A program made the translations under genes and the position numbers. Below are positions 22,470-52,960 of a DNA stretch of 64,000 bases, piece after piece. Source of the stretch: Schumannella luteola (GTDB taxonomy: Bacteria; Actinomycetota; Actinomycetes; Actinomycetales; Microbacteriaceae); assembly GCF_013408685.1 (NCBI RefSeq), contig NZ_JACBZY010000001.1, positions 434,001 through 498,000 on the forward strand, written 5' to 3'. The notes beneath the pieces were generated by a model. The model was not told the origin of the DNA. It did not search any database and worked only from the letters and a program-made list of their open reading frames with translations. The number at the start of each line of letters is the position of its first letter. The stretch's first letter is position 1.

Positions 22470-22536
22470 TGAGGGGTCGCAAAGACCCCGGGATCCGCCC
22501 GGATCGGCCCGATTGCGGGGCCTTTGCGACCCCTCA
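22470..22536. repeat. intergenic palindrome B (GAGGGGTCGC type)
   Basis: Two 21-nt arms (22470-22490 and 22516-22536), tip TGAGGGGTCGCAAAG, match at 20 of 21 positions around a 25-nt loop. It lies 41 bp after the lplA-like stop. It shares its outer 11 bp with palindrome C at 52892. Confidence 0.8.
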
Positions 22537-28109: not shown

Positions 28110-28164
28110 GATCGGTCGCGAACTGTCGCCAACCGCGAGGTTGGGCGACAGTTGGCGACCGATC
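28110..28164. repeat. intergenic palindrome D (GATCGGTCGC type)
   Basis: Arms 28110-28133 and 28140-28164 pair over about 24 bp with one mismatch and one bulge; tip GATCGGTCGCGAACTGTCGCC, loop only 6 nt. It sits between the convergent aldo/keto reductase and VOC genes. Its outer sequence recurs in palindrome E at 35068. Confidence 0.8.
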
Positions 28165-34976: not shown

Positions 34977-35067
34977 GCTGGGCCGAGCTGAGCGGGGCCG
35001 GGCTGCCGGCTCGGCCGGCTCCCGAGCTTCGCCGACTGCTCCCCTCTTTCTCCCGACTCACAGCGAT

Positions 35068-35125
35068 CGATCGGTCGCAAACTGTCGTCTGAGGTCCACT
35101 CCAGGCGACGATTTGCGACCGATCG
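35068..35125. repeat. intergenic palindrome E (GATCGGTCGC type)
   Basis: Arms 35068-35091 and 35102-35125 match at 21 of 24 positions around a 10-nt loop; tip CGATCGGTCGCAAACTGTCG. It lies between convergent genes (34976 stop and 35187 stop). Same family as palindrome D. Confidence 0.8.
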
Positions 35126-35186
35126 AAGTTGGGGCGGGGCGGGGCTGACCGATCGGCCGGCTCCCGGACAAACCAGCCGGGGGCTC

Positions 35187-35780: not shown

Positions 35781-35838
35781 TGAGTTGCCCGGTTCGGCCG
35801 GGATACGGAGCCCGAACCCGACCGAAGCGGGCAACTCA
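35781..35838. repeat. intergenic palindrome F1 (GAGTTGCCC type)
   Basis: Arms 35781-35800 and 35819-35838 match at 18 of 20 positions, tip TGAGTTGCCCGGTTCGG. It lies 33 bp after the gabT stop and before the GNAT start. Three further copies lie in tandem at 39790-40025. Confidence 0.78.
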
Positions 35839-37253: not shown

Positions 37254-38908
37254 GCGACGTCTCCTCTCGAAGGGGTGGTCGAGCCGCGGGGTGCGGTGGT
37301 CGTGGGAGTGCTGGGTGCGGTGATCGCGGATGGCGGGGTCGCGCCGCTCGCGGAGCGCACGGCGTCCGCCAGGTCGGCGGCGAGCGCCGCCAGCTGCGCG
37401 TCGTCGAGCTCGTGGGCGGTGAGGCGGATCGCGTGGATGCCGGTGGTCGCATCCAGGGCGAAATCGGCGCCGAGGCGGGCGCGCCACCCGCGCTCGCGCA
37501 GGGCCGCGGTGACGGCGGCGCCGGTCGGCGGGGTGCGCGCGCCACCAGTTCCCGTGACGATCTCACGGAGTTGCTGTGACTCGTGGGACGGACGAGCCTC
37601 ATCCGCCTCATCCGTTACAGCAACTCCTTGAGATGGTTTCTCGCCCGGGGCCAGGGCCAGATCGACCCACACGTTGAGGCCGTCGCCGGCGCGCACGCGG
37701 GCATCCGGCACGATGGCGCGCAGGGGCGCCGCCGCGAGTGCGTCCATCAGCACCTCGGCTGCCCGCAGGTTGCGGGCGCGGTAGTGGTCGCGGGCCGTCG
37801 AGACCTGCCAGCGCACCCCGGCATCCGTCGCGAGGGATGCCGCGAGCCGCTGCAGCAGGTGGCTCACCCAGGTGGTGCCGCCGCTGAGCCGGGCGCCGAG
37901 GCGCTCGCCCGTGGCGGGGTCGGCGGCGACGACCGCGAGGCGCAGGTCGGGCCCGAGGAACTTCGACACCGAGCGCACGAGCGCCCACCGGGGGTGCCCA
38001 CGAGGCACGACCGTGCGGTACGGCGTCGTCGCGAGCTCGGAGAAGTGGTCGTCTTCGATCACGAGCACGCGCGGATACCCGGTGAGGATCGAGCGCAGCG
38101 CGTCAGCGCGAGCCGCGCTGAGGCTCGCGCCGGTCGGGTTGTGCGCCCGCGGCGTGAGCACGACCGCCCGCACCCCCTCGGCGAGCGCGCGCTCGAGACC
38201 GTCGGGCGTCATCCCCTCGGCGTCGACCGGCACCGGCACGATCCGGTGGCCGAGCTGCCGCGAGGTGGCGATGCTCGCCAGGAAGCACGGGTCTTCAAGG
38301 GCGACCGCGTCGCCCTGCGTGAGGTGCTGGGCGAGCAGCCGCTCGACCGCATCCACGGCGCCGCTCGCGACGGTCAGGCAGAAGTCGGGATGCTCGGGAC
38401 GGTCGTCGGCGAGGCCGGGGCGGGCCCAGGACTCGAGCGCGGGATCGAGGGCCGGGGCGCCGTAGACGACGGGAGCGGATGCGGCGGTCGGCCCGGCGGC
38501 GAGACGCGCCGCGGCGGCCAGCAGGTCGGGCAGCAGACGGGGGTCGGGGTTGCCGTGCCCGATGTCGCACACGTCGCGCGAGCCGCGCGGGTGAGGCACC
38601 TCGGCCGAGGCGGCGGGACCTCGCTGCGCGCCCTCCTCGGGCAGCGCGATCGGATGCGCGACCGAAGTGCCGCCGCGCCCGGCGGTGACGACGACGCCGG
38701 CGAGCGCGAGTCGCCGGTAGGCGGCGACGACGGTGTTGCGGTTCACGCCGAGCGTCTCGGCCAGGGCCCGGACCGGCGGGAGCGCCGCCCCGGGAAGCAG
38801 ATCGCCCGCGTCGACGAGGTCGCGGATGCTGTCGGAGATCTCCTCGGCGGTCGTGCCGCGGATCGCGGCGCTCGAGGGGGCCGCATCCGGGATGCCGGAT
38901 CTCGCCAT
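37250..38908 (-). CDS. MocR/GabR-type regulator: GntR winged helix fused to an aminotransferase-like domain
   Basis: A 552-aa regulator. Residues 15-85 are the GntR winged helix (VRALAETLGVNRNTVVAAYRRL). From residue 120 on is a fold-type I aminotransferase domain with VLTPRAHNPTGASLS, VIEDDHFSEL and the PLP lysine in VRSVSKFLGPDLRL. It likely senses PLP plus an amine and controls gabT and itself. Unusually, a roughly 40-residue insert (about residues 425-465, including SHESQQLREIVTGTGG), encoded by a 75-bp palindrome, interrupts the C-terminal subdomain without breaking the frame. The ATG has GAGGAGG upstream. Confidence 0.92.
   Translation of the reverse strand: MARSGIPDAAPSSAAIRGTTAEEISDSIRDLVDAGDLLPGAALPPVRALAETLGVNRNTVVAAYRRLALAGVVVTAGRGGTSVAHPIALPEEGAQRGPAASAEVPHPRGSRDVCDIGHGNPDPRLLPDLLAAAARLAAGPTAASAPVVYGAPALDPALESWARPGLADDRPEHPDFCLTVASGAVDAVERLLAQHLTQGDAVALEDPCFLASIATSRQLGHRIVPVPVDAEGMTPDGLERALAEGVRAVVLTPRAHNPTGASLSAARADALRSILTGYPRVLVIEDDHFSELATTPYRTVVPRGHPRWALVRSVSKFLGPDLRLAVVAADPATGERLGARLSGGTTWVSHLLQRLAASLATDAGVRWQVSTARDHYRARNLRAAEVLMDALAAAPLRAIVPDARVRAGDGLNVWVDLALAPGEKPSQGVAVTDEADEARPSHESQQLREIVTGTGGARTPPTGAAVTAALRERGWRARLGADFALDATTGIHAIRLTAHELDDAQLAALAADLADAVRSASGATPPSAITAPSTPTTTAPRGSTTPSRGDVA
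37560..37634. repeat. palindrome embedded in frame in the MocR gene
   Basis: Arms 37560-37580 and 37614-37634 (ATCTCACGGAGTTGCTGTGAC and its near complement) match at 19 of 21 positions around a 33-nt loop holding a CCTCATCCG doublet. It lies wholly inside coding sequence yet looks like the long intergenic palindromes, and it falls between the conserved WVDLAL and ALRERGW segments. Confidence 0.75.
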
Positions 38909-39788: not shown

Positions 39789-39789
39789 C

Positions 39790-40025
39790 GCGAGTTGCCC
39801 AGTTCGGCTGGGTTGCGGGCCCCGAACCCGGCAGAAACGGGCAACTCGCGATCCCCAGCCCGCAGGGAACTCGCGCGGCGACACCGACTTGCCCGCTTCC
39901 GCCGCATCCGTGAGGCGACAAGCCGCGGAAGCGGGCAACTCGGGTGCCACGAGATGTCGGCCTACGCCGAGTTGCCCACTTCCGCCGGGATAGGGCCCGC
40001 GAACCCGGTAGGAGTGGGGAACTCG
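39790..40025. repeat. three tandem intergenic palindromes F2, F3, F4 (GAGTTGCCC type)
   Basis: F2 at 39790-39849, F3 at 39885-39942 and F4 at 39968-40025 each open with (G)CGA(G/C)TTGCCC and close with the near complement GGGCAACTCG; F4 closes with GGGGAACTCG. Inner parts share CCGGGATA..GGGCCCGCGAACCC-like blocks. They fill the whole gap between the convergent amidotransferase and DUF6716 genes. Confidence 0.82.
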
Positions 40026-52891: not shown

Positions 52892-52960
52892 GTGAGGGGT
52901 CGCGAATCGCGTCAGGAGTCGCCGTTTCGGCTGCCCCTGACGCGTCTTGCGACCCCTCAC
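52892..52960. repeat. intergenic palindrome C (GAGGGGTCGC type)
   Basis: Arms 52892-52916 and 52936-52960 match at 22 of 25 positions around a 19-nt loop. The outer GTGAGGGGTCGC matches palindrome B at 22470. It separates the convergent ABC permease and the 52957 gene, overlapping the latter's stop by 4 bp. Confidence 0.8.

Follow-up and report, generated by a model that had tools for sequence, protein, structure and literature searches.

Short palindromic repeats are widespread in bacteria. The closest described counterparts of the repeat reported here are REPs and REPINs with their RAYT enzymes (REPtrons), which the available portions of two accounts present as short, extragenic, family-specific palindromes that have their own enzyme gene between copies and occasionally a copy within a gene (PMC3733652, PMC3116915). 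REP palindromes are given there as 20–40 bp long, and those of the CGTC type serve as an example of palindromic repeats without a known mobilising enzyme (PMC3733652). REPs bear a GTAG or CGTC tag at one end, and the enzyme of REP/RAYT systems is a Y1 HuH (IS200/IS605-like) transposase. RPEs are palindromic repeats that can lie in frame in protein-coding genes, and the available part of one account reports no enzyme partner for them (PMC10969869); a high share of them is genic, and they are about 150 bp long.

Here we describe a dispersed palindrome of Schumannella luteola that resembles both. With REPtrons it has in common its extragenic, family-specific habit, an enzyme gene between copies and an occasional genic copy, and with RPEs the in-frame position of one copy in a protein-coding gene. 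It differs from REPs in its length of 83 bp, in being symmetric and without an end tag (CGTC occurs internally in some copies, never as a tag at one end), and in that the flanked gene encodes a DUF559/Vsr-type nuclease. From RPEs it differs in size, in the flanked nuclease gene, and in that 1 of its 11 copies is genic. We consider it probable that repeat and gene form a two-part system, in which a lineage-specific 83-bp palindrome would be bound and cut by the product of a chromosomal nuclease gene lying between two of its copies, with repair driving its spread.

The element lies within a MocR/PtsJ-like regulator gene in the window, a 64-kb stretch of the S. luteola chromosome, which contains several other palindromes as well (Table 1). 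The original prediction had seen two 21-nt arms here (37560–37580 and 37614–37634), and these are present, with 19 of 21 positions pairing. It also had a 33-nt loop between them; the arms do stand around this segment, but the palindrome does not end there, since the whole element is 83 bp and nearly all of it is palindromic. Indeed, a repeat search returned 40-nt arms (37557–37596 and 37598–37637) that are 78% complementary and 1 nt apart. Folding of the 83-bp element beat dinucleotide shuffles on either strand (z of −7.3 and −6.0; 0 of 200 shuffles as good). Across both strands of the window, the arm-pair pattern occurs at this one element only, against a shuffling expectation of 0. The host protein has a GntR domain and an aminotransferase I/II domain, and its nearest NCBIfam model is the MocR-like regulator PtsJ, at a score below the cut-off (447.6 vs 573 bits).

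Table 1. Features of the window, by position (position 1 is the first base of the window; a dot marks features without a strand).
Feature	Position	Strand	Basis or remark
Palindrome, GAGGGGTCGC family	22470..22536	.	Family search, at least 4 places
Palindrome, GATCGGTCGC family	28110..28164	.	Assigned by arm sequence only; not among family search matches
Second copy, GATCGGTCGC family	35067..35126	.	Family search
Palindrome, GAGTTGCCC family	35781..35838	.	Assigned by arm sequence
Host gene, MocR/PtsJ-like GntR + aminotransferase regulator, 604 aa	37250..39064	-	ORF and domain matches
46-codon MocR stretch (4 codons in homologues); element makes up 28 of the codons	37520..37657	-	Alignment with homologues
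83-bp palindromic repeat element (the finding)	37556..37638	.	One of the genome's 11 copies, each exactly 83 bp long
First outer arm, 22 nt, consensus of the family AACCRTCTCAAGGAGTTGCTGT	37556..37577	.	Over the 56 arm ends of 28 copies, 11 of its 22 positions do not vary
Palindromic inner part; variable positions mirror each other (columns 23, 27, 31, 35 vs 61, 57, 53, 49)	37578..37616	.	
Outer arm 2, 22 nt, inverted	37617..37638	.	
Palindrome, GAGTTGCCC family	39789..39850	.	Assigned by arm sequence
Palindrome, GAGTTGCCC family	39884..39943	.	Family search
Palindrome with GAGGGGTCGC arms	52892..52960	.	Not returned as family member in family search
Palindrome with GAGTGGCCA arms; possible relation to the GGGTGGCCA family, which flanks nuclease gene L161	54487..54553	.	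By eye

The MocR protein has 42 residues more than its homologues. Between the segments DGLNVWVDL and AVTAALRERGW there are 46 residues here and 4 in each of 22 homologues from other genera. A protein search over 249 genomes of the family Microbacteriaceae, to which Schumannella belongs, had found the regulator in 24 genomes at E≤1e-60, including this one and that of G001, which is the closest genus-mate at the loci compared; the genus-mates G002–G004 had no match at E≤1e-30. The G001 orthologue alone also has the 46 residues. That the palindrome had entered in frame between conserved aminotransferase segments, as first proposed, is therefore borne out by a gap in 22/22 outside homologues. Twenty-eight of the 42 extra residues are encoded by the 83-bp element and the remainder by flanking sequence that is likewise missing from the homologues, whose gaps leave the exact insertion ends unfixed. 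Because G001 shares the insert, the insertion is older than the split of this species and G001. The G001 element differs by 7 changes in 83 bases, altering 5 residues, and as protein the inserted segment seems to be under weak constraint. No special copy is required for reading in frame, since 62 of the 168 frames over 28 copies of the family are free of stops.

We conclude that an insertion is the well-supported reading of the palindrome in the MocR alignment. We did consider that the insert might be a low-complexity loop that grew slowly and independently and is similar to the family by chance, as the fact that only 28 of the 42 extra residues belong to the element might suggest. However, the agreement extends over the full 83 bp with each of the ten other copies in the genome (60–69 of 83 positions on the better strand, E down to 2.2e-19), which in practice refutes such an origin and leaves it a negligible probability. 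Insertion of a family member, then, is the reading we carry forward. No consistent target-site duplication emerged from the 28 element sites, and none of the sites compared was a perfectly clean empty site; the element was presumably mobile nonetheless.

A search of the complete genome (3.75 Mb, one contig), which the original prediction had proposed as a way to tell a dispersed family from a single occurrence, came out in favour of the former, with 11 distinct copies, every one exactly 83 bp. At up to two mismatches the arm pattern has 30 matches in the genome, of which 22 form 11 pairs with a constant start-to-start distance of 57 nt; the remaining eight are unpaired, have two mismatches and are of the same kind as a control pattern yields (12 in all). 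At up to one mismatch there are no lone arms in this genome, and the arms occur only as the 11 complete pairs. Schumannella sp. 10F1B-5-1 has at least 17 copies in 15 stretches, again all exactly 83 bp, and the 28 copies from the two genomes align without a gap. When 84,980 species were scanned for the degenerate arm pair, allowing a gap of 30–55 nt, 10F1B-5-1 alone was returned (our own genome possibly lying outside that set), and a covariance model at E≤1e-5 found more distant relatives in 10 of 249 genomes of the family, from 6 of 85 genera. No plasmid match to the element was found. An association with tRNA or tmRNA genes was considered and dropped, since the 25 loci contained a single tRNA, which lies 3.3 kb from an element.

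Twenty-six of the 28 copies are intergenic, one lies over an uncertain gene start and one, that in MocR, is plainly inside a gene (a genic share of 1/28 over the two genomes), as judged with a simple codon-usage gene caller of our own that missed the flanked nuclease gene. The likeness to RPEs that had been suggested at the outset therefore stands in part. There is a dispersed family with an in-frame copy, but a gene-inserting habit is not supported and the size is 83 bp, not about 150 bp. As a separate observation, palindromes of 83–106 bp at loci L112, L115, L120 and L124 in other genera have an inner part like GTGTGACNGGNGTGNCGGATG in common with the 83-bp family (best at L115, L120 and L124), while their outer arms differ. 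To judge from this inner part, an older palindrome superfamily with variable ends seems likely.

The aligned copies have a regular anatomy. Element ends are mostly AACC or GACC, on both sides, and the inner part consists of conserved short blocks parted by free positions that are mirrored on the other arm. On both arms, these free positions fall at every fourth base of the 28 aligned copies (columns 23, 27, 31 and 35). The centre of the MocR copy is GAGCCTC, vs GTTGCTC or its reverse complement in 22 of the 28 copies. Over all 28, 83.6% of cells are paired vs 84.5% in shuffles, and with no excess of compensatory change a selected RNA or single-stranded DNA hairpin is not supported. The element also has no match in Rfam. 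This anatomy fits a protein reading a two-fold symmetric DNA site better than it fits a selected RNA hairpin.

These data also bear on whether the palindromes might be functional sites of the host, such as bidirectional terminators, stabilisers of mRNA or sites bound by a chromosome-organising protein, with the DUF559 protein a regulator that uses them. Such sites would be expected between genes, where all copies but the MocR one and that at the uncertain gene start lie, and the strong hairpin potential and the conservation of the arms between species would suit them too. However, covariation does not exceed that of shuffles, no Rfam match was found, the arm-pair pattern is confined to a single strain among 84,980 species (this genome aside), and the absence of the element from inspected sites in G001 argues against an essential host role. 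We regard host sites as quite improbable and return to the two-part reading, in which the gene between two copies is central.

Two copies, 1.1 kb apart, bracket a single gene in the S. luteola genome (locus L064), and the same arrangement occurs at the same place in 10F1B-5-1. The product is 287 aa long and has a DUF559 nuclease domain above the cut-off (37 bits). Below the cut-off it matches the MTES_1575 REase model and, at its N-terminus, the AbiEi_4 model, with AbiEi also appearing in PADLOC; no NCBIfam match was found. The source protein of the MTES_1575 model is described, in the part of the report available, as having a Vsr-family REase domain (PMC3710099). A profile built from 15 such proteins, compared with solved structures, matched 3hrl (1.4e-12), the mobile-intron protein 3r3p (2.1e-8) and, weakly, Vsr entries (0.05–0.09), and the residues S, E, D, E and D of the nuclease domain are invariant over the 15. 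A structure predicted for the nuclease from a single sequence was of poor quality (mean pLDDT 46) and is not used as evidence. Carriage of the nuclease by plasmids or phages was considered and dropped, the matches being three in Tsukamurella plasmids (29–37% identity) and one in a phage-like contig (33.8%).

The entry 3r3p is I-Bth0305I, a homing endonuclease of the EDxHD type. The flanked nuclease resembles the EDxHD homing endonucleases and Vsr in a domain related by profile and in conserved acidic residues. I-Bth0305I reportedly forms a dimer on a target just short of 60 bp, a length that fits long, fixed-length palindromes (PMC3943268, in the portion available). Unlike the EDxHD homing endonucleases, the protein here is the product of a free-standing chromosomal gene, has an AbiEi-like N-terminus and has intact dispersed copies of the palindrome on both sides. 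Its weak N-terminal similarity is to the AbiEi antitoxins of the type IV toxin-antitoxin system AbiE, for which binding to inverted repeats is a described feature (PMC7319586, in part). Unlike in AbiE, the AbiEi-like part is fused to a nuclease, and there is no room for AbiEii between the L064 palindromes, where the open reading frames of at least 150 aa are the 287-aa sense frame and one overlapping antisense frame; no AbiEii partner was found there, this being the single sense frame of that size.

The same layout recurs elsewhere in the genome. A profile search found seven long paralogues (the match at one of them, L159, spans a stop), along with a relic and a single weak match. Five of these paralogues (L158, L160, L161, L162 and L164) and the relic are each enclosed by two copies of one palindrome, and the palindrome differs from locus to locus, in a tally that partly uses 9-nt words and was read by eye; a word test at k=10 gives 3 of 6 own loci. 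No matched pair was found at L163 (genome 3383741–3384526) or at L159 (1847108–1847914), where a k=9 match (listed as L072) was a chance word and is not counted. These two loci are possibly immobile, decayed or of different function.

We then compared other genomes of the family, taking one DUF559 locus per genome by score alone (29 loci, with one genome, G004, of the same genus). Ten of the 29 have, on each side of the gene, a 10- or 11-nt word together with its reverse complement, as against none of 22 control loci, which come from one gene family only (MocR); words of these lengths were used because shorter ones produced chance hits among the 22 control loci (2 at k=8, 1 at k=9). Stricter 12-nt words leave 8 of 29. 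An earlier pair criterion gave 9/29 and missed clear pairs, and the word-based version is the one reported. Three more pairs (L085, L090 and L093) can be recognised by eye or with the earlier criterion, and 16 of the 29 loci have no matched pair even with these looser cases added, by a test that is strict and undercounts diverged pairs. The palindromes of the loci seen are about 42–126 bp long. When eleven flanking palindromes were searched in their eleven genomes, 8 genomes had at least three places beyond the flanks (at least 23, 15, 9, 8, 8, 6, 6 and 5 places in total among the matches listed), and the remaining three had a flanking copy and at most one weak place among the matches listed. 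Only a single match, of 30 bases, lay outside a palindrome's own genome, among the matches listed for the eleven genomes.

Outside the family but within the phylum the layout is rare. Of 17 uncut longer-type loci one is flanked, and two (L185 and L187) have open frames below 200 aa. This sole clear case (L188), in another actinomycete, is a DUF559 gene with equal-length AACTTCGGGT palindromes on both sides. Loci of the short group outside the family gave 0 of 6; a short-group locus with repeats of unequal spacing, L174, was not counted. Four longer loci and one short locus outside the family were dropped because they are cut by contig ends.

Two further readings must be weighed against this pattern. 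The first is that the 83-bp elements belong to a MITE family that an ordinary DDE transposase mobilises, the DUF559 gene being there as a passenger or by coincidence. The terminal inverted repeats, the dispersal between genes and the one copy in a gene speak for it. Yet at up to one mismatch no lone arm turned up in the genome, and accordingly no insertion sequence bearing such ends, the nuclease gene is the only gene seen closely bounded by these arms, no consistent target duplication was seen at the 28 sites, and the association with DUF559 genes recurs with unrelated palindromes in other genera. We find a MITE origin very improbable.

The second is that solo palindromes are scars. A whole palindrome-nuclease-palindrome cassette would insert in the manner of a homing cassette and subsequently lose its gene when the repeats on its two sides recombine, with a single 83-bp palindrome staying behind, much as solo LTRs remain. 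The spacing of left and right palindromes is equal in 9 of the 10 strictly flanked loci (the tenth differs by one base), as a cassette would predict, and a second pair in G082, 1.06 kb apart and known from its palindromes alone, is spaced as a second cassette would be; a nuclease relic (L165) also lies between two palindromes. But in the S. luteola genome a single cassette stands against nine further copies, nowhere else are two copies of this family about 1 kb apart, 83 bp is short for homologous recombination, and recognition by an enzyme would explain the fixed inner length as well. Cassette scars are thus an unlikely source of the solo copies, though one to be kept in mind, and we prefer the spread of the palindrome itself under its nuclease.

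Comparison with the genus-mates suggests how the two parts are maintained and lost. At four sites common to this genome and 10F1B-5-1, 38–39 of 44 arm positions and 23–29 of 39 centre positions agree, and the flanking 40 nt agree at 55–79%, vs 62% for random pairs. G001 has about 48 bp in place of the 1.23-kb nuclease cassette. The element is also absent from four further G001 sites that we inspected, one of them with a possible short trace, and a model search of that genome (E≤1e-5, strict filters, 18 candidates scored) returned the MocR copy only. This copy agrees with its S. luteola counterpart at 39 of 44 arm positions, 37 of 39 centre positions and 37 of 40 positions of each flank, so that its arms are no better kept than the rest. 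Such a pattern is expected if arms stay constant only while the nuclease is present, on small numbers from one genome. G001 may never have had some of the sites, though several are common to this genome and 10F1B-5-1.

In G003, the same locus holds a nuclease 43% identical to that of L064, between palindromes with other arms, CGATCTCGGCATC, and the dispersed G003 copies found by the model carry CGATCTCGGCATC arms too. In G004, the nuclease at this locus is 40% identical and has yet another palindrome, seen on one side only. From these differences, gene and palindrome appear to change together. At this locus (L007/L064), nucleases that are 40–43% identical among S. luteola, G003 and G004 sit between genes about 83–87% identical in DNA, which suggests very fast change or replacement of the cassette.

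Several other palindromes of the window can be assigned to families with dispersed copies, counted here as lower bounds with 40 of 103 candidates scored. The GATCGGTCGC family occupies at least 9 places in the genome, two of which flank the nuclease gene L162 (genome 3464131–3465012). The GAGTTGCCC family occupies at least 14, and the relic L165, at about 3.527 Mb, lies between two such palindromes. No partner nuclease for the GAGGGGTCGC palindromes was found in this genome. Besides GATCGGTCGC and GAGTTGCCC, three families of the genome have at least 15, 5 and 4 places, the last being the GAGGGGTCGC family. Judged by sequence, then, some intergenic palindromes of the window are members of the same kind of palindrome-nuclease system. 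Copies of the GGGTGGCCA family occur mostly as tandem pairs or triplets about 50–80 bp apart, start to start, like clustered REPs (genome positions 144897/144977, 214115/214189, 885780/885859/885933, 1015536/1015612, 1135568/1135646 and 1658110/1658158).

We infer binding, cutting and repair-driven spread in the following steps. The N-terminal half of the 287-aa protein would bind the palindrome, probably as a dimer seated on both inverted arms. An EDxHD-type enzyme that dimerises over nearly 60 bp, combined with a part resembling the AbiEi antitoxins, which bind inverted repeats, would make such a fusion suited to reading a long palindrome. The nuclease domain (DUF559/Vsr-type, EDxHD-like) would nick or cut at the palindrome or at related sites. 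Nucleases of the DUF559/Vsr-type family are hydrolytic, and because a hydrolytic nuclease cannot join DNA, copying would be left to host repair, which may copy or renew the element and so produce slow spread and arms that stay uniform while the enzyme is present. One copy would have landed in frame in a permissive loop of MocR before the species and G001 split, and nearly all copies would be intergenic because most genic insertions are expected to be lost. A hydrolytic nuclease acting through host repair would bring the mode of action closer to homing. Among the open-access papers searched, we found no report that pairs DUF559 or Vsr-like enzymes with dispersed palindromes, which points to a repeat-nuclease pairing that is undescribed.

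More broadly, we put at about an even chance the existence of selfish or domesticated systems of a common type in Microbacteriaceae, where a fusion nuclease of the AbiEi-Vsr kind keeps up and spreads a long, fixed-length palindrome of its own. Such a class would be a counterpart of REP/RAYT with an independent origin in homing-endonuclease-like enzymes. Each nuclease would read its own palindrome, the two would diverge jointly, the repeats would be lost once the nuclease is gone, and stray copies could turn into new protein segments. A recurrent pairing with Vsr/EDxHD-type enzymes would supply a candidate enzyme for such repeats in Microbacteriaceae and would give a function to part of the DUF559 proteins of unknown function. 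It would also provide natural nuclease-target pairs with long targets. The MocR copy illustrates how a repeat of this kind turns into protein.
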